A stretch of 64,000 bases of DNA from Nitrospirota bacterium (GCA_021790195.1 JAJYIF010000006.1:62001-126000), one strand, 5' to 3'. Counted from the stretch's first letter, positions 4,673 through 35,876 are shown. Numbers and translations: made by a program. Notes: a model not told the origin generated them from the letters alone.

Positions 4673-5703
4673 TGCTTTTTCATAAAGTTGTAGGAATGTT
4701 TTCGAATGACCTTGCCGTGGACCTCGGTACGGCAAATACGCTTGTTTTTGTCAAGGGGAAGGGTATTGTCTGCAATGAACCTTCCGTTGTCGTGGTGAGG
4801 AAGGAGGACAAGAGGACCATAGCGGTCGGGGTGGATGCGAAAAGGATGCTTGGCAAGACCCCTTCCAATATCATCGCCATAAGGCCCATGAAGGACGGAG
4901 TAATTGCCGACTTCGACGCCACCGGCGAGATGCTGAAGTATTTTATCAAGAAGGTCCACAACCGAAAGAGTTTTCTCTCCCCGCGGGTCATCATAGGCGT
5001 CCCGTCCGGAATCACGCAGGTGGAGCAGAGGGCGGTTAAGGATGCGGCGCAGGCCTCCGGGGCCCGGGAAGTCTATCTCATCGAAGAGCCGATGGCGGCC
5101 GCCCTCGGCGTAGGGCTTCCGGTGGGGGAGCCTTCCGGCAACATGATTGTAGATGTGGGCGGAGGGACCACCGACATCGCGGTCATTTCCCTTGACGGCA
5201 TTGTCTACAGCAAGGCGGTGAGGGTCGGCGGAGACAAGATGGATGAGGCTATAATCGCATACATAAAGCGCAAATATAACCTGCTCATAGGCGACAGGAC
5301 CGCTGAACAGGTGAAGATAGAGATCGGCTCTGCGTGCGTGTCTGACCCGGACGTCACGAAGACGATGGAGATAAAGGGAAGGGACCTGATATCGGGCATT
5401 CCCAAGACTATTGTGGTGACCGAGACTGAAATAAGAGAAGCCCTGCACGAGCCTGTGAGTGTTATCCTCGACACGATAAAAGTTACCCTGGAAAATACCC
5501 CCCCTGAACTGGCAGCCGATATTGTCGACAGGGGCATAGTCCTTGCGGGAGGCGGGGCCTTATTGAGAGGCCTCGACATACTCGTAAGAGAAGAAACCGG
5601 ACTTCCCGTCGTCGTCCCCGATGATCCCTTGACGGCAGTGGCGAGGGGAGTCGGCAAGATGCTCGACGAACTGGAACTGCTTAAGAAAATTGCCATAACC
5701 TGA
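4672..5703 (+). CDS. mreB: Rod-shape actin homologue MreB
   Basis: 343-residue actin-fold ATPase that polymerises under the inner membrane and positions the elongation machinery. ATP-site motifs are clear: phosphate 1 loop [15 protein letters not shown] near the start, phosphate 2 [14 protein letters not shown] around residues 160-173, and the adenosine motif [15 protein letters not shown] near 288-302. The ATG at 4672 follows AGGAGG by four bases; the preceding TTG is too close to it. First gene of a tightly overlapping mreBCD-mrdA-rodA operon. Confidence 0.97.
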
Positions 5704-6485
5704 TGTCCATTAGGCGTCTTTTTCCTTTTTTCTTACTCTTGGTTGTTTCCGTAACCCTCATGACTTACCAGAGCAACAAAGGGAGAATTGCGCCCTTTAA
5801 GTTCCTCTCCGGTCCTCTTAACACCCTGAACAACGCTATACATTCCCTGTCCGTTTCGGTCAGAGAGCCGTTCCAGCGGGCGATGCTGAGGGAGGAGGAA
5901 AACCGCAAGCTCAGGGAGGAAGTAAATAAACTCCGTATGGAACAAGAAGAATACAGAGAAACATTCTTTGAAAACCAGAGACTAAGGGACATCCTTTCCC
6001 TCAAGGAAAGAGAGAAAAGATACGTTGCCACGGCGCGGATAATCTCGCGAGGAGAAGACCCGTGGTCGAACACGCTTGTTGTCGAAAAAGGGAGTCGCGA
6101 CGGCATCGCAAAGGACATGGCGGTCATAACCCCCATTGGGCTAATCGGGAAAGTGTCCTCTGTAAGCGACCGTTATTCCCATGTCCTCCTCGTCACCGAC
6201 ATGAACTTCTCGGCTGCGGTGAAGATCCAGGAAACGAGGGAAGACGCCATCCTTTCGGGGACCGGCGCCGGGTATTGCATACTGAAATATGTCCCTGAGG
6301 AGGAGAAGGTCAAACCGGGAGATATTATTGTTACATCGGGGTTCGACGATTTGTTCCCTCAGGAGTTGGTAATCGGATATGTGACAAGGGTTGCAAAAAA
6401 AGGGGCGAGCATTTTTCAGCAGGTGGAGGTGGCCCCGGCCCAGGACCTGACCAAGCTTGACGAAGTGGTGATTGTGAAGCGATGA
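5703..6485 (+). CDS. mreC: Rod-shape protein MreC
   Basis: 260 residues: one N-terminal transmembrane segment (about 5-22), a coiled coil rich in Glu, Arg and Lys (about 55-100), then the periplasmic beta domain with RIISRGEDPWSNTLVV and KGSRDGIAKDMAVITP. MreC binds PBP2 and activates elongation-specific peptidoglycan synthesis. ATG overlaps the mreB stop (TGATG). Confidence 0.95.
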   Translation: MSIRRLFPFFLLLVVSVTLMTYQSNKGRIAPFKFLSGPLNTLNNAIHSLSVSVREPFQRAMLREEENRKLREEVNKLRMEQEEYRETFFENQRLRDILSLKEREKRYVATARIISRGEDPWSNTLVVEKGSRDGIAKDMAVITPIGLIGKVSSVSDRYSHVLLVTDMNFSAAVKIQETREDAILSGTGAGYCILKYVPEEEKVKPGDIIVTSGFDDLFPQELVIGYVTRVAKKGASIFQQVEVAPAQDLTKLDEVVIVKR

Positions 6486-28521: not shown

Positions 28522-30159
28522 ATGGTGAGCAGAAAGATTGCCGAGCGCATAGACTCTCTTCTATCAAAGGAAAGCGGGACTGTTTTCAAGGACCCCGGAG
28601 GCAGGGTCAGCGTCTGTCTCGTATACCCGAATACATACCATGTGGGCATGTCGAACCTCGGTTTTCACGGTATCTATACCCTTCTCAACGAAAGAAGAGA
28701 TGTGGTCTGCGAGCGGGCGTTTCTACCAGGGGAAGAGGACATGAGTGAATATGCAAGGACCGGCATGGGGATGGTCTCCCTTGAATCGAAGAGACCGCTT
28801 GGCCGGTTTGATGTTGTCGCCTTTTCGGTGTCGTTTGAAAACGACTATCCCAATATCCTCAGAATACTGCGGATGTCGGGGATACCCCTCAGGGCAGGGA
28901 ACAGGACGGGGGCTGACCCGCTGCTGATAATGGGCGGTGCGTGCGCCCTTTTCAACCCCGAGCCGGTGGCGGACTTTTTCGATATCTGTTTCATCGGAGA
29001 GGCCGAAGATATGCTCGGGGAATTCGTGGAAGTATATAAGGCTTCTGACAGCAGAAGAGAGATGCTTGAAAGAACGGCGGGGATAGAAGGATGTTATGTG
29101 CCGCGGTTTTATGAAGTTGCGTATGGCGCCGACGGGAAGATAGAGGGGAGGAAGGCCTTTCATGGTGCGCCTGATATATTGAAGAGGAGGTTTGTACAGG
29201 ACATCGCCGGATGCGCTCTGAGGCAATCCATAATAACGCCCGAGACGGAGTTTTCGGGCATGTATCTCATGGAGGCCATGAGAGGATGCCCGTGGAGCTG
29301 CAGGTTCTGCGTTGCCGGCCACATCTATAAGCCGGTGAGGAAGAAGCCCATCGAGGCCTTAAAGGAAGAGATCAGGAGCGCCTCGGCCTCAGGCAGAAGG
29401 ATTGGGTTGATAGCCCCTTCTCTTACCGATTACTCGTATGCAAAAGACGTCCTTTGCTTGGACGGGATCGATTTCTCCATCACCTCTCTTAGGGCTAGCC
29501 GCAAGAGCGCCGAGCTGGTCCGTTTTCTCAGGAACCACAGGAGCGTGTCTATCGCTCCGGAAGCGGGTACGGAGAGATTGAGAAGGGCGGTCGACAAAAG
29601 GATAACAGAAGATGACATTATCGAGACGTCGCGCCTTATCCTTTCCGAAGGGGTCGGGACCCTGAGGCTCTACTTCCTGGTCGGTCTCCCTTCGGAAACA
29701 GACCGGGATTGCGAGGGCATAATAGATCTTGTGAAGAAGATACGCGGAGTTTCGACTAAGGGGCAGATCGTCCTTACGATCAGCACCTTTGTGCCGAAGC
29801 CTTTTACGCCTTTCCAGTGGCACGGCATGGAAGAGATGGAGGTCGTGAAGGGCCGGCTGAAGCTGATAAAGAGCGGGCTCTCGGGATTGAAAAGGGTCAA
29901 GGCGTTTAATGACGTGCCCAAGTACTCATACCTGCAGGGGTTGTTCGCAAGGGGAGACAGAAGGATTTCAGAGGCGCTGGAGATCATGCTGCGAGCCGGC
30001 GATTGGAGGACCGCGTGCGCCGAGGCGGGCGTGGATCCGTCTTTCTATATATTCAGGCGCAGGGAGTTCGGCGAAGTGCTGCCGTGGGATTTTATAGATA
30101 ACAATGTCTCCAGGGAGAAACTTTGGGAAGAATATCAGGAGGCCCTGCGGGGAAAATGA
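28522..30159 (+). CDS. Radical SAM protein, TIGR03960-like
   Basis: 545 residues from the ATG at 28522. A B12-binding-like N-terminal domain (VCLVYPNTYHVGMSNLGFHG; MGGACALFNPEPVADFFD) is followed by a radical SAM core with C256, C260 and C263 in RGCPWSCRFC (CX3CX2C). Later blocks IAPEAGTERLRR and STFVPKPFTPFQWHGMEE match the TIGR03960 family, often found with an adjacent TIGR03936 protein, not seen here. Substrate unknown. The start is uncertain: an ATG at 28507 or further upstream is possible, and no clear ribosome-binding site was found. Overlaps yggS by 4 nt. Confidence 0.82.
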   Translation: MVSRKIAERIDSLLSKESGTVFKDPGGRVSVCLVYPNTYHVGMSNLGFHGIYTLLNERRDVVCERAFLPGEEDMSEYARTGMGMVSLESKRPLGRFDVVAFSVSFENDYPNILRILRMSGIPLRAGNRTGADPLLIMGGACALFNPEPVADFFDICFIGEAEDMLGEFVEVYKASDSRREMLERTAGIEGCYVPRFYEVAYGADGKIEGRKAFHGAPDILKRRFVQDIAGCALRQSIITPETEFSGMYLMEAMRGCPWSCRFCVAGHIYKPVRKKPIEALKEEIRSASASGRRIGLIAPSLTDYSYAKDVLCLDGIDFSITSLRASRKSAELVRFLRNHRSVSIAPEAGTERLRRAVDKRITEDDIIETSRLILSEGVGTLRLYFLVGLPSETDRDCEGIIDLVKKIRGVSTKGQIVLTISTFVPKPFTPFQWHGMEEMEVVKGRLKLIKSGLSGLKRVKAFNDVPKYSYLQGLFARGDRRISEALEIMLRAGDWRTACAEAGVDPSFYIFRRREFGEVLPWDFIDNNVSREKLWEEYQEALRGK

Positions 30160-30857
30160 AGAGCACATTGCTTTTGGAACGTATAAGCAAAATATACAAG
30201 AGGATCTCCCACGCTGCGATGAGGGCGGGGAGGGATCCCGAGGATGTCAGGCTTATCGCGGTCACAAAGACCGTAAGTGCCGGGCAGATAAGAGAGGCTA
30301 TTGATGCCGGGCTGCGCATCTTCGGAGAGAACCGGGTCCAGGAAGCACAAAAGAAGGTGACGAGTGACGAACTGCGACTGGAAAACGAAGAGATCTCGTG
30401 GCATCTGATCGGTCATCTCCAGAAGAATAAGGCAAAGTTTGCGGTGCAATTGTTCGATCTGATCCACTCAGTGGATTCGGAGGATCTCGCCTGCGAGATA
30501 GACCGTCACGCGCAAAAGACCGGCAAGCGCCAGGATGTTCTGGTCGAGGTTAAGCTCTCGCACGAGGGGACCAAGCACGGCGTTTCAAGGGGCGGTCTGC
30601 CCGGCCTCTTAAGAGTGGTCGAAGACCTGAAGCACCTGAACCTCAGGGGACTCATGACGGTCCCGCCCTTCTTTGACGACCCCAAAGAAGCGAGGCCGTA
30701 CTTCAGAGAGTTGCGGGAATTGAGGGACAGGGCGGCGGCAGAGGGCTTTGATCTGCCGGAGCTGTCCATGGGAATGTCCGGAGATTTTGAGATCGCCATC
30801 GAAGAAGGGGCTACGATGGTCCGGATAGGGACGGCTATATTCGGGGAAAGGGAATAG
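30156..30857 (+). CDS. yggS: PLP-homeostasis protein YggS
   Basis: 233-residue PLP-binding alanine-racemase-like barrel protein: the PLP lysine in LIAVTKTVSAGQIREA, FGENRVQEAQKK, WHLIGHLQKNKAKF, LSMGMSGDFEIAIEEG and VRIGTAIFGER. It buffers free PLP. ATG at 30156 overlaps the upstream stop (ATGA). It is normally followed by proC-yggT-divIVA; here two foreign genes intervene. Confidence 0.95.
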   Translation: MKSTLLLERISKIYKRISHAAMRAGRDPEDVRLIAVTKTVSAGQIREAIDAGLRIFGENRVQEAQKKVTSDELRLENEEISWHLIGHLQKNKAKFAVQLFDLIHSVDSEDLACEIDRHAQKTGKRQDVLVEVKLSHEGTKHGVSRGGLPGLLRVVEDLKHLNLRGLMTVPPFFDDPKEARPYFRELRELRDRAAAEGFDLPELSMGMSGDFEIAIEEGATMVRIGTAIFGERE

Positions 30858-30924
30858 GCGAATTTTATATAGAAAAGACGGGCATTTTGGTATAGAATAA
30901 ACAACAATATTGGAAGCATGAATC

Positions 30925-33900
30925 ATGACCTCGGAAAAGAAATACTGGCAGATAAATACGGAAAAGCTTGTAAGGGACATAAATGAAATCGCTGACAAAT
31001 CCGGAACGGAAGAAGATCTCAAGATGGGCGTTGAACCCCTTCTTCAAAGTACGTTCAAGAAGATGGGGATTGATATCGACATTGTGCAATATGAGAAAAC
31101 CGCTACGAGATTCAAAGGGAAAGCTGATGCGGTTTATGGTTATCTTACGATTGAATATAAGCTTCCCGGAAAATTATCAGAAAAAGCCGGCGTTGGAAAG
31201 GCTGTTGAACAACTTCAGCGTTATCTCACCGAGCAGGCAGCGCAGTTCGGGTTGCAAAAGGAAGATTTTCTTGAAAAGGCTGTCGGCGTCGCTGTCGACG
31301 GCAAACACATAGTCTTCATCCGGTTTACGAAGACACCTACGATATTACAGACGCCGATACCAATTCAGAAAGCGCAAGCCGCCCTTTTTTATGAGGTTGA
31401 GGCCAGTTACGGTTTTCAGGTGTCGGGACCGCACGTTATAAGCACGGCAAGCATCAGCAACCTTCTGATTTTCGTCAGGGCGTCGGCCAGGCGCCCTCTG
31501 ACCGCAAAAGACCTTGCCACTGTTTTTTCTCCCGCGTGCGAGGTCACGAGACAGGCGGTCTCCGAGCTTTATTCCGAGGTGATGAGGGCGCAAAGAAGGC
31601 ATGCGCCTTCGAGAGTAAAGACCTTTTTCACAGAGTGGGACAGAATTTTCGGCGTTGTCTATGGAGAGGAGACCGAAAAAGCTGTCAAGTCTGCTGAGGA
31701 GACCGCAACTCTATACCAGATACCCGGCGGCGCAAAACTTAAGTACCTTCTTTTTGCTATTCACACCTTTTATGCTTTTCTCATGAAGCTTATTGCCATA
31801 GAGCTTGTATCATTGCAGCGAGAAAGCTCGATAGAGTCATTTGTCAAGGGATTAGGCGCGATGGATGATGATGAACTATTCGAGAAGCTCACTTATCTGG
31901 AAAGCGGAGCGGATTTTATAGATCGGGGGATTAATAATTTCCTGGAGGCGGATTTCTTTTCGTGGTACCTCGACGGTTGGAGCACCGGGTTCGCTCGTGT
32001 CTTCCGCAATATTGTACGGACGCTGTCTGATTTTGAACCGGCGACCCCGATTCTTGAACCTGAGTGGACGAGAGACTTATTGCAGAAGTTGTATGAGGTC
32101 ATCGTTCCCAAAAAGCTCAGACACGATCTGGGTGAATATTATACCCCTGACTGGCTTGCAGGTTATGTGGTCGAAAAGAGCGGATATACGGGAGAAAGCG
32201 GCAGCCGTTTCCTCGACCCTGCCTGCGGATCGGGCACTTTTCTTGTTCAGGCGGTCAATCGGGCAATAAAATATGCGGAAGGGCAAAAGAGAATCGATCC
32301 GAACGCCTTGGCCCACCACATACTCGACAACATTGGCGGGTTCGATCTAAATCCGCTCGCAGTGCTGGCGGCGCGGACCAACTACCTGATCGCATTTTCC
32401 AGACTCGTTCCCTACATAAGACCTATTTCAATACCTGTTTATCTTTGTGATTCTGTTCTTGCTCCTACGCGCTACGTTGAAGAAGGAAAGCTCTCATTTG
32501 ATAACACAGTGGTTTTCTCCACCACAAAAGGGGATTATATCTTCCCGGTTTTCATGCAGCAGAAAAGTCATATCGACAAATTCACTTCCATGATGGATAT
32601 TGCCATAAGAGGTAAGATTGAACCCGAGATTTTTGTAAAACAGATCAAAAAGGAATTCAACACTTCAGAAGAAGATACCAAACTTCTCGTCCAGGTTTAT
32701 CGGCGCATAAAGGAATTGGACGACAACGGCGAAAACGGCATCTGGGCAAGATACATAAAGAACGCCTTTGCGCCTGCATACCTGGGTAGATTCGATTATG
32801 TCGTCGGCAATCCGCCGTGGATAAGATGGGGCTATCTTTCGGATGATTACAGAAAAAGAACGCTTAAGCTGTGGCATAGATACGGCTTATTTTCTTTAAA
32901 AGGGCATGAGACAAGACTTGGAGCGGGTGAGAAGGATTTCTCCATGCTTTTCACTTACGCCTGTGCAGACAATTACCTGAAGGATAAGGGAATCCTCGGG
33001 TTTGTCATCACTATGGAGGTTTTCAAGTCAAAAGGCGCGGGGGAGGGCTTCAGACAATTTGAACTGAAAGATAAGAAGGTGCCTGTTAAAGTCTTGGGCA
33101 TGGAGGACATGGTCGATTTAAAACCTTTCCAGGCTGCAAATAAGACATCCATTTTCTTTCTCAGGAAAAACGAAAAGACAACTTATCCCGTGCCGGTACT
33201 TGAATGGAAAAGGAAGAAGGGAGTCGGCCGCATTCCTCCTGAATGGCATCTTGAAGAGGTGAAGGCTAATTGCGCGATAAAGAAATCAAGGGCAATCCCC
33301 GTAAATCTTAAGAAGCCATCTTCATCCTGGCAGACTGCTCCAGCCGCTGAAATAAAGATTTTCTCGAGATTGAAAGGAAAGAATCCTTATAAAGCTCATC
33401 TTGGCGCAAGGGTCGAGCCGTACGGCGTCTTCTGGCTTAGCGTGAAAGAGGTCAGGCCCGATGGTCTCCTTGTGGTCGAGAATATGCACGAGAGAGGAAA
33501 GAGGGAGATCAAATCAGTTAGCGCTGCAATAGAGCCTGATCTGGTATTCCCGGCCGTTAGCGGCGGAGATATAGTGAAGTTCGGGATTAAATCTCACTTT
33601 GATCTTCTTATATCGCAGGACCCCGAGAAAAGATGTGGATATGACGAGGAATATTTAAGCGCAGAACTACCTTTGACGTATGCGTATCTGGTTCAGTTTA
33701 GGGATATTCTCACGAAGCGCGCAGCCTATCAAAAATATTTTCATAAGGAAATAAAGAAGGACGGAAAAGTCATAAAGCGAATACCTATCGCTCCTTTTTA
33801 TTCAATGTACAATATCAGTGGGCTGTCATTTGTAAAATATAGAGTTGTTTGGAAACGCATGGCTTCAAGGATGAACGCGGTCGTGCTTTCCGGCATGAAG

Positions 33901-34233
33901 ACGGACTTTGGAACAAAAAAGATAATCTCGACAGATACCACATCTTTTTTTGCAGTCAATGACAAAGACGAAGCCCATTACCTGTGCGCAATATTAAATT
34001 CAGATATTATCGATGATTTCATTAGGAGCTTTTCATCCGCGGGTCGTGGGTTCGGCGCTCCTTCCGTGATGAATAATCTTGCAATTCCGAAATTTAAGGC
34101 CGATAATAAAATCCATATGAGGCTTGCTGAACTGTCGGAAGATGCGCATAGTCTGGCGCAAAAAGGAATATCCGCATTGGATGTCGAGAGCGAGATAAAT
34201 GCTCTATCGAGGAGACTATGGAACATAGAGTGA
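30925..34233 (+). CDS. Fused restriction endonuclease-DNA methyltransferase (type IIG-like)
   Basis: 1102 residues. The N-terminus has a PD-(D/E)XK nuclease pattern: D68 then E77-Y-K79 in ADAVYGYLTIEYK, with an acidic helix before it. A helical linker (about 180-400) precedes the methyltransferase core: GEYYTPDWLAGYVVE, motif I DPACGSGTFLV at 431-441, and motif IV NPPW at 629-632, the adenine-N6 (Eco57I-like) type. The C-terminal 300 residues look like a target-recognition region (PAVSGGDIVKFGI, SVMNNLAIPKF). So cutting, modification and recognition are on one chain. It overlaps the DprA-like gene by 16 nt; the region looks AT-richer than its neighbours. Confidence 0.88.
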   Translation: MTSEKKYWQINTEKLVRDINEIADKSGTEEDLKMGVEPLLQSTFKKMGIDIDIVQYEKTATRFKGKADAVYGYLTIEYKLPGKLSEKAGVGKAVEQLQRYLTEQAAQFGLQKEDFLEKAVGVAVDGKHIVFIRFTKTPTILQTPIPIQKAQAALFYEVEASYGFQVSGPHVISTASISNLLIFVRASARRPLTAKDLATVFSPACEVTRQAVSELYSEVMRAQRRHAPSRVKTFFTEWDRIFGVVYGEETEKAVKSAEETATLYQIPGGAKLKYLLFAIHTFYAFLMKLIAIELVSLQRESSIESFVKGLGAMDDDELFEKLTYLESGADFIDRGINNFLEADFFSWYLDGWSTGFARVFRNIVRTLSDFEPATPILEPEWTRDLLQKLYEVIVPKKLRHDLGEYYTPDWLAGYVVEKSGYTGESGSRFLDPACGSGTFLVQAVNRAIKYAEGQKRIDPNALAHHILDNIGGFDLNPLAVLAARTNYLIAFSRLVPYIRPISIPVYLCDSVLAPTRYVEEGKLSFDNTVVFSTTKGDYIFPVFMQQKSHIDKFTSMMDIAIRGKIEPEIFVKQIKKEFNTSEEDTKLLVQVYRRIKELDDNGENGIWARYIKNAFAPAYLGRFDYVVGNPPWIRWGYLSDDYRKRTLKLWHRYGLFSLKGHETRLGAGEKDFSMLFTYACADNYLKDKGILGFVITMEVFKSKGAGEGFRQFELKDKKVPVKVLGMEDMVDLKPFQAANKTSIFFLRKNEKTTYPVPVLEWKRKKGVGRIPPEWHLEEVKANCAIKKSRAIPVNLKKPSSSWQTAPAAEIKIFSRLKGKNPYKAHLGARVEPYGVFWLSVKEVRPDGLLVVENMHERGKREIKSVSAAIEPDLVFPAVSGGDIVKFGIKSHFDLLISQDPEKRCGYDEEYLSAELPLTYAYLVQFRDILTKRAAYQKYFHKEIKKDGKVIKRIPIAPFYSMYNISGLSFVKYRVVWKRMASRMNAVVLSGMKTDFGTKKIISTDTTSFFAVNDKDEAHYLCAILNSDIIDDFIRSFSSAGRGFGAPSVMNNLAIPKFKADNKIHMRLAELSEDAHSLAQKGISALDVESEINALSRRLWNIE

Positions 34234-35075
34234 TAACGCTGGCCGATCCCCGATACCCCCGCAAGGCAAAGGAACGCCTCGGCAGTGAAGCCCCGAATAT
34301 CTATTATAACGGCCCTCTGAAATTCCTCGACCGTTTTACCATGACGGTAATCTGTTCCGATCAAAGCCACGGACTGGAGCTGCTGGAAACAAACCAGGTC
34401 CTTTTTACGATAAGAGAATATGATTTGAATTATATAGGAAGCTGGCACTCGATAATCGAGAGCGAGATATTCCGCTTGGCGATGTTTCAGGGATACGGCC
34501 GGTACGCAAGCAAGAAAGGCAGGAATATATTATTAGGCGAGAGGACGCTAACATTGTTTTCCGCAAAGGGGCTAAATAACGAGACTTACGAATCATATCT
34601 GCTCGACAGGTTTTATCCGCCGCTGCATGAGTTTCCCGAACGCGACGAATATTTCAGACGAGTCCGGGAAGGGGAACTATTAATGCTCTCCGTGTGCGAC
34701 CCGGAGGAAACAAGACAAAGCAGGAAAAATATAATGCAAAGGAACTGGATGGCCTGCGTGCTTGGAGACATTGTCTTTATTCCTTACGGGCCAAAAGGGT
34801 CAAAGACTTATATAACCGCAAAGAAATTGATTGAGGCAAATATTCCGACTTTTACCCTTGAGCATCCTACTTGTACCGACCTCCACAAAATCGGTATCCA
34901 CGGTTTCAATCGCAAGACCGTTGGGGGATTTCTTGAAGAAAAAGGCGCCAAAAAAGCGATTAGAGAAAATAGTAAGGGAAATGCCGGGTCAAGATATGAG
35001 CTTCCGGAATATAGAGCGCCTGTTGCTAACGAACCGGTGCAGACAAAGATGAGTTTCAAAAAGAATGCTCGCTGA
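34218..35075 (+). CDS. DprA/SLOG-like protein coupled to the restriction-methylase
   Basis: 285 residues. The N-terminus (LADPRYPRKAKERLG, then APNIYYNGPLKFLD) mimics the start of DprA. The Rossmann core then departs from DprA (no GSR or SGLA-GID motif), but the C-terminal half returns to it: ELLMLSVCDPEETRQ, RNWMACVLGDIVFIPYGP at about 175-192, and SKTYITAKKLIEANIPTF, matching the RNR-IAGLSD-VLVVEA, SGSLITA, A-E-GRPVFAVPG blocks. DprA binds single-stranded DNA and loads RecA; SLOG proteins elsewhere bind nucleotides. Its function here is inferred to be tied to the upstream enzyme. Translation is coupled by the overlap. Confidence 0.72.
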   Translation: MEHRVITLADPRYPRKAKERLGSEAPNIYYNGPLKFLDRFTMTVICSDQSHGLELLETNQVLFTIREYDLNYIGSWHSIIESEIFRLAMFQGYGRYASKKGRNILLGERTLTLFSAKGLNNETYESYLLDRFYPPLHEFPERDEYFRRVREGELLMLSVCDPEETRQSRKNIMQRNWMACVLGDIVFIPYGPKGSKTYITAKKLIEANIPTFTLEHPTCTDLHKIGIHGFNRKTVGGFLEEKGAKKAIRENSKGNAGSRYELPEYRAPVANEPVQTKMSFKKNAR

Positions 35076-35087
35076 CAAGGAGATTTT

Positions 35088-35876
35088 ATGATCGGTTTTA
35101 TCGGGGGCGGCAACATGGCGGAGGCGCTTATCAAAGGGATGACCTCTCAGGGCATGAAGGGCATAATAGTTTCCGAGCCCAATGCAGACCGGAGAAGCTT
35201 TCTGGAGGGGGAGTACGGGGTGAAGACGACGCCTTCAAACAAAGAGGTGGCTTCCTTGTGCAGTCTCATACTTATTGCCGTGAAACCCCAGAACATGTCT
35301 GCGGTGCTCGATGAGATAGAAGACGGGGTGACGGAAGAAAAAACCGTCGTCTCCATTGCCGCAGGGATCACTCTTTCATACCTCGGTGCAAAATTGAAGA
35401 CAAGGCGGCTTGTGAGGGTCATGCCCAACACGCCTGCCATAGTCCAGGAAGGCATGTCGGTCCTGTCCTTGTGCGAATGCTTTTCGGATGGAGAGATTGC
35501 CAGGATAAGGGAGATATTTATGTCCGTCGGCAGGGTTCTCACGCTGCCCGAGGAGCAGATGAACGCGGTGACGGCCCTTTCAGGCAGCGGGCCTGCTTTT
35601 GTGGCCCTCTTCGTGGAAGCGATGACCGAGGCGGGGACGGAACTCGGTCTGAACAGGGACGATTCAGCGGAGTTGGCGATACAGACGCTGATCGGCACTG
35701 CTAAACTCCTCGAGACAGGGATGCCGCCGAACCGGCTAAGAGAGATGGTCACATCGCCGGGAGGGACCACGGCTGCCGGTCTCAAGGTATTTGAAGAAAG
35801 AGACCTCGGGGGAGTTATCGGCGCTGCGCTTCAGGCCGCCCGTGAGAGGGCCGAGGAGCTCGGAAGGAGGGAATAA
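35088..35876 (+). CDS. proC: Pyrroline-5-carboxylate reductase
   Basis: 262-residue enzyme for the last step of proline synthesis. NAD(P) Rossmann loop IGFIGGGNMAEALIKGM at the start; VKPQNM, RLVRVMPNTPAIVQEGMS and the C-terminal ALSGSGPAFVALFVEAM and TSPGGTTAAGLKVFE are standard. AGGAG precedes the ATG. It sits 12 bases behind the DprA-like gene and so depends on transcription through the inserted pair or from an internal promoter. Confidence 0.97.
   Translation: MIGFIGGGNMAEALIKGMTSQGMKGIIVSEPNADRRSFLEGEYGVKTTPSNKEVASLCSLILIAVKPQNMSAVLDEIEDGVTEEKTVVSIAAGITLSYLGAKLKTRRLVRVMPNTPAIVQEGMSVLSLCECFSDGEIARIREIFMSVGRVLTLPEEQMNAVTALSGSGPAFVALFVEAMTEAGTELGLNRDDSAELAIQTLIGTAKLLETGMPPNRLREMVTSPGGTTAAGLKVFEERDLGGVIGAALQAARERAEELGRRE

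Follow-up and report, generated by a model that had tools for sequence, protein, structure and literature searches.

A type IIG restriction-methylase gene paired with a DprA-like gene at the yggS-proC junction of a Nitrospirota bacterium

Introduction

Host DNA that has just been replicated is still unmethylated, and a single-chain restriction enzyme has to be kept from cutting it. Here, we analyzed a 64,000-nt stretch of a Nitrospirota bacterium genome (GCA_021790195.1, JAJYIF010000006.1:62001-126000; hereafter “the window”, with positions counted from its first letter), in which a gene for a single-chain type IIG restriction-methylase and an overlapping gene for a DprA-like protein, its partner, lie between the housekeeping genes yggS and proC.

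DprA-like proteins have been described in several related settings. The antitoxins of shosTA, syrTA, and rqlHI are DprA homologues, and DprA has been proposed as the sensor in a DprA-PRTase phage defense system (PMC9122126). RqlI, which shows homology to DprA, interacts with the RqlH helicase and blocks its genotoxicity (PMC4670107). In Helicobacter pylori, DprA was reported to stimulate a methyltransferase in addition to inhibiting restriction enzymes (PMC4489622).

The present locus resembles each of the closest described systems in part. Like type IIG systems (PADLOC family PDLC03630; Eco57I-like), it combines a nuclease motif, gamma-class N6-adenine methylase motifs, and a putative C-terminal recognition region in one chain, but known members have been described on their own or alongside a separate methylase or specificity subunit, whereas the enzyme of the present clade is invariably accompanied by a DprA-like gene. 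With PsyrTA/RqlHI it shares a DprA-like second gene, a weak match of the partner to the PsyrA model (27–30 bits; at 27 bits over short stretches, compared to 442–577 bits for true PsyrA), and a PxQxxLxF motif after the DprA domain. There, however, the toxin is a RecQ helicase (RecQ-PRTase), while the neighbors here are a type IIG restriction enzyme gene and proC, and PsyrA, unlike the partner, still carries GSR and ARG as well as additional regions at both termini. ShosTA, i.e., a PRTase toxin with the DprA-like antitoxin ShosA (8zva), is similar through the fold predicted for the partner (Z 17.3, among the closest solved folds) but differs in its other gene. H. pylori DprA is likewise a DprA-fold protein that modulates restriction; it is, however, canonical, chromosomal, and equipped with its own C-terminal domain, and the source does not describe it as belonging to a restriction-modification operon (PMC4489622). 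Finally, some Nitrospirota systems of a different type IIG family, PDLC03628, also have a DprA-like gene downstream of the enzyme, but this partner is small and without the tail motif discussed below. The enzyme by itself is already known in kind, as a PADLOC type IIG system, and so are DprA-like antitoxins. A preliminary description of this DNA, made from the sequence alone, had not recognized the pair as a known system, and no account of the fixed pair or of the shared tail motif was found in the literature searched, which covered only a minority of subscription journals.

A recurrent two-gene unit

In the window, the methylase gene (30925–34233, + strand, 1102 aa) and the partner gene (34218–35075, + strand, 285 aa) overlap by 16 nt (34218–34233), and an AGGAG ribosome-binding site for the partner lies within the methylase gene (34210–34214, + strand). 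All six long DprA-like genes detected, five from Nitrospirota genomes and one from a record titled Deltaproteobacteria (L010), come immediately after a methylase of this clade or what remains of it. Methylase identity within the clade was 73–84% in Nitrospirota and 55% in L010, and an overlap of 16–19 nt was kept across loci, the 19-nt form being that of L010. One relative obtained in the relatives search came from record JACQXD010000081, titled “Nitrospirae bacterium”. By comparison, a partner was present in 0/9 Nitrospirota loci with methylase relatives of ≤45% identity (6/6 vs 0/9, Fisher P = 2e-4 for loci that are not independent) and in 0/5 plasmid loci with methylase relatives of 28–29% identity. 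Given its recurrence in six loci and the retained overlap, the pairing goes beyond chance.

The surroundings of the pair differed between genomes (gene names by reading, except where a family search supports them). In G057, it sits between KdsD-like and KdsC-like genes with gaps of 13 and 1 nt; in G313, it precedes an aminotransferase gene by 1 nt; and in L010, it is close to a permease gene. In G137, the intact pair is directly followed by FRG-domain (PDC-S15) and GmrSD_N (DUF262-type) defense genes (L055:7483-9416). The two genes are therefore a real unit that is mobile across several different sites. Relatives of the partner were absent from the phage and plasmid collections and from the viral contigs searched, so that no phage vector was found.

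Among the more distant methylase relatives, one of 35% identity (L105, genome G386) belongs to a cluster of several genes that also encodes a BREX-like DUF6079 ATPase and another DNA methylase, and gene sets resembling this cluster by eye were seen in L106 (G114) and L058 (G322).

Domain content of the enzyme and its partner

The first gene matches the PADLOC type IIG model nearly over its full length (PDLC03630 REase_MTase_IIG, 880 bits, residues 14–1086), with Pfam Eco57I and N6_Mtase above cut-off. As listed in the preliminary description, it encodes the PD-(D/E)xK-type nuclease residues D68, E77, and K79 (31126–31161, + strand; the first two unchanged across nine relatives), an S-adenosylmethionine (AdoMet) motif DPACGSG at residues 431–437 (32215–32235, + strand; sequence and alignment), and the gamma-class N6-adenine methylase motif NPPW at residues 629–632 (32809–32820, + strand), all of them where they had been placed. 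The gene is intact and has the full set of catalytic motifs. A TaqI_C-like specificity region at residues 929–1041 (33709–34047, + strand) scored below the Pfam cut-off (21.7 vs 26.5 bits) and is partly variable among relatives. In addition, the C-terminal part of the enzyme occurs with two alternative segments, AAYQKYFHKEIKKDG... or SRVVREFAKNTE... (window vs L055, L056, and L061; alignment columns about 1020–1070), which points to an exchange of specificity between closely related enzymes.

The second gene had been described as an overlapping DprA/SLOG-like gene, and this was borne out, with a weak match to DprA and a predicted SLOG fold. Its product falls below the cut-offs for canonical DprA (PF02481, 25.3 vs 29.6 bits; TIGR00732, 24.5 vs 191 bits). 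An AlphaFold2 model built from six sequences reached a predicted local distance difference test (pLDDT) score of 55, which rose to 77 when eleven small relatives were added, with an unconfident tail at residues 250–285 (pLDDT about 40). Aligned with VIA-align, this predicted model matched DprA (3uqz) with Z 21.2 and a root-mean-square deviation of 2.6 over 203 residues, and it resembled LOG-like and ThsA SLOG domains more weakly. A profile search of solved structures reached ShosA and DprA, whereas a single partner sequence matched no solved structure, and comparison of the model with viral protein structures returned nothing meaningful.

In an alignment with canonical DprA and PsyrA, the DprA motifs GSR and ARGID were exchanged in the partner for CSDQSHG and SWHSIIESE. 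The latter includes an HSxxExE signature (residues 77–83; 34446–34466, + strand), which stands in for ARGID and does not vary among 17 relatives, both long and small; H77, S78, E81, E83, R166, and N176 are invariant in both forms. The partner also lacks the C-terminal winged helix seen in the host's own DprA, a canonical protein encoded elsewhere in the same genome, and ends instead in a tail predicted to be disordered. With the two DprA motifs gone and its own signature, R166, and N176 strictly conserved, the partner is DprA-like and not a DprA; it belongs to a separate subfamily, with a DprA fold in the predicted model.

Loss of the enzyme and retention of the partner

In two lineages, the enzyme is broken while the partner is kept. 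The G057 enzyme is split, with about 31 residues including NPPW gone and the frame shifted, and the G001 enzyme has been lost for the most part through a deletion. Both partners remain intact reading frames, 68–76% identical to the window partner, and their ratio of non-synonymous to synonymous differences (pN/pS) against the window copy is 0.23–0.26. Synonymous sites were saturated in many comparisons, so that the corresponding rate ratio (dN/dS) serves as a rough check only. The converse arrangement, i.e., an intact methylase of this clade without a partner, was not seen among the loci examined. A partner that outlasts its enzyme is what would be expected if the enzyme were toxic and its restrainer harmless, in a comparison of small numbers drawn from metagenome assemblies.

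A clamp-type motif in the partner tail

The predicted disordered tail of the partner carries the motif PVQTKMSF (residues 273–280; 35034–35057, + strand), which resembles sliding-clamp-binding motifs, for which the consensus is Q-aliphatic-x-[L/M](x)-[F/L] (PMC13254535, PMC11139829). Tails of the long partners conformed to PxQxx[LMI]x[FL] in 5/6 cases, with PTQLDLLP in L010. Three of the six, namely G057 (QIELNL), G001 (QAQLNF), and L010 (QLDLL), match the published consensus, and all six, window copy included, match a relaxed clamp-type motif. Against a background of 375 open reading frames (ORFs), in which the G001 partner had been displaced by a longer frame on the opposite strand and is not counted, the relaxed motif occurred within the last 25 residues of 17, five of them long partners, and the strict motif in 3, two being long partners.

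A PxQxxLxF-type motif was also present in 7/8 PsyrA/RqlI antitoxins, identified through RecQ-PRTase neighbors or model scores, compared to 1/23 ordinary DprAs. In these antitoxins, it comes after the DprA domain and ahead of the C-terminal helix-turn-helix, in the forms QPELFF (E. coli plasmid), QNELSF, QDELSF, QSELSF, QSQLSF, and QNNLPF; a Nostoc protein of this type has QLSLL at its extreme end. The loci behind this comparison were L037, L038, L110, L111, and L115–L119. On the ShosTA side, the single PRTase-linked DprA-like plasmid protein inspected (L114) had no tail motif. From these motif matches, the partner may dock on the replication clamp via its tail.

Insertion between yggS and proC

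The pair lies between yggS (30123–30857, + strand; Ala_racemase_N) and proC (35088–35876, + strand; P5CR_dimer), with all four genes on the same strand and 12 nt from the partner gene to proC. The placement, direction, and spacing given in the preliminary description were exact, as the ORF coordinates confirmed, and the inference of an insertion was upheld by an empty site: in G003 and G005, from the same family as the window genome, yggS and proC are adjacent, about 100 bp apart. A TAGAATA box in the yggS-proC intergenic region of G005 aligns upstream of the cassette in both the window and G001, and a promoter-like match lies there in the window (30870–30898, + strand). This is likely the ancestral proC promoter, today upstream of the cassette, and the alignment indicates that the cassette entered between it and the proC ribosome-binding site, which is carried by the 12-nt gap at the right edge of the insert (35076–35087, + strand; CAAGGAGATTTT). 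From this arrangement, the cassette and proC probably share one transcript today.

The base composition of the pair, also remarked upon earlier as AT-richer than its surroundings, is consistent with a foreign origin. GC content was 0.461 for the methylase and 0.465 for the DprA-like gene, compared to a window ORF mean of 0.523 (standard deviation (sd) 0.024), and GC content at third codon positions was 0.50 and 0.52, compared to 0.63 (sd 0.06); the 60-base line at 34381 indeed holds 19 G/C. Codon-usage distance, with the window ORFs as reference, was only mildly unusual. A dedicated mobile element was considered as the vehicle, and no integrase or transposase was found among the window ORFs between yggS and proC. 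The pair is an inserted, foreign-looking unit, best explained as a horizontally acquired restriction-modification cassette.

Other inserts occupy this junction in related genomes: an opposite-strand Lcl-domain gene in G004 (L080:5662-7116), an extra DUF433 gene in G001 (L075:3392-3718), and 1 kb without a clear gene in G006 (L076, about 5250-6280). The junction thus seems tolerant of insertion. In G328, from another family of the same order, the methylase also directly follows yggS and, close to the 3' end, is interrupted by a further stretch of DNA that resembles an insertion element.

Possible roles of the partner

We tentatively favor, at somewhat less than even confidence, an acquired two-gene restriction-modification cassette in which the second gene product restrains the first, perhaps while docked on the clamp at replication forks. 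Specifically, the type IIG enzyme would mark its own sites and cut unmarked DNA, while the partner, made by translational coupling through the 16-nt overlap, would limit cleavage, or shift the balance toward methylation, on the host's own DNA. The C-terminal motif may dock the partner on the replication clamp, which would bring it to host DNA that has just been synthesized and still awaits methylation. This reading is supported by the 6/6 pairing, the conserved overlap, the retained partners of G057 and G001, the predicted fold match to ShosA, and the tail motif shared with PsyrA/RqlI antitoxins; the closest functional precedents are RqlI, PsyrA, and ShosA, which restrain a toxic partner, and H. 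pylori DprA. While the pairing, overlap, insertion, motif conservation, and loss of the enzyme with the partner kept are observed, and the fold is predicted, we infer the restraint, the docking, and the site of action.

Several points weigh against such a restrainer. The majority of type IIG enzymes, distant relatives of the present enzyme among them, function without such a partner. The sample is limited to six loci, mostly from metagenome assemblies, in which broken copies can be artefacts. As for the clamp, the window motif QTKMSF has a T at position 2, as does QTSMAF of Pol III epsilon, which binds the clamp weakly (about 210 µM; PMC11139829), and the small DprA-like partners of the PDLC03628 family have no tail, so that clamp docking is not general.

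If restraint holds true, a co-translated partner that is kept after its enzyme breaks would be a candidate for sparing new host DNA, and the theme of DprA as an antitoxin would reach beyond RecQ and PRTase toxins to include restriction enzymes. The shared tail motif also bears on whether DprA-like antitoxins across defense systems use the replication clamp. Extended further, DprA-fold proteins could form a general class of clamp-docked safety catches in bacterial defense, the tail tethering the type IIG partner and PsyrA/RqlI antitoxins so that, at host forks, they hold back an effector that damages DNA and free it once the host replisome is taken over or bypassed by a phage; we regard this generalization as speculative and rather unlikely.

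Alternatively, the partner could be an activator or sensor that recognizes phage DNA or replication intermediates and switches on type IIG cleavage. DprA-like genes do occur in defense contexts, the sensing role proposed for DprA in the DprA-PRTase system offers a parallel, and clamp docking would report replication as well. Yet type IIG enzymes generally cut without partners, GSR and ARGID of DprA are not retained, and survival of the partner beyond its enzyme in two lineages is odd for a pure activator, and we consider this reading unlikely. Retention of the partner where the enzyme is lost would also suit an enzymatic effector, i.e., an HSxxExE SLOG protein that would act on nucleic acid or a nucleotide and provide a second defense arm independent of the enzyme. 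The six residues invariant in long and small forms, together with the weaker likeness of the predicted model to nucleotide-binding LOG-like and ThsA SLOG domains, point in this direction, but the partner has no known catalytic motif and its closest folds, DprA and ShosA, are not known as enzymes; we consider this reading improbable.

The preliminary description had proposed a two-gene defense system whose DprA-like part may guard single-stranded or incoming DNA. The two-gene unit stands, as a paired type IIG and DprA/SLOG system. The guard function appears very improbable: the predicted DprA fold (Z 21) and the alleviation of restriction of incoming DNA by H. pylori DprA, as cited in PMC4489622, would be compatible with it, but GSR, ARGID, and the winged helix are absent from the partner and the host possesses its own canonical DprA. 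That an ordinary type IIG gene merely sits beside an unrelated passenger is hardly tenable, since this is already contradicted by 6/6 pairing with a conserved overlap at several different sites, even though the family of the enzyme is established in PADLOC and its distant relatives stand alone.

DprA-like genes in a second type IIG family

The different type IIG family PDLC03628 was detected in 19 Nitrospirota genomes, with a small DprA-like gene (about 160–225 aa) within 6 kb in 10 of them (L068, L070, L071, L072, L074, L154, L155, L156, L158, and L162). This gene was downstream on the same strand in nine of the ten; at the tenth locus, in G230, one enzyme copy lies upstream and another downstream of it. 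XRE, ImmA (ImmA/IrrE), or DarTG genes often intervene between enzyme and small DprA-like gene, and HSxxExE was present in those small partners that were aligned. Taken together with the PDLC03630-clade loci, this indicates that a DprA-like partner joined type IIG enzymes at least twice.

Small DprA-like genes were also seen directly after a DarT and macro-domain (DarTG-like) pair, with a 4-nt overlap (L155:3681-5871), and after a macro-domain gene (L069:5504-7293). Upstream of PDLC03628 enzymes, L150:1917-5303 encodes a PLD-SNF2 helicase of about 1.1 thousand amino acids (PADLOC HKD+Snf2 / DrmD-like), and similar ORFs occur in L154, L155, L156, and L160.

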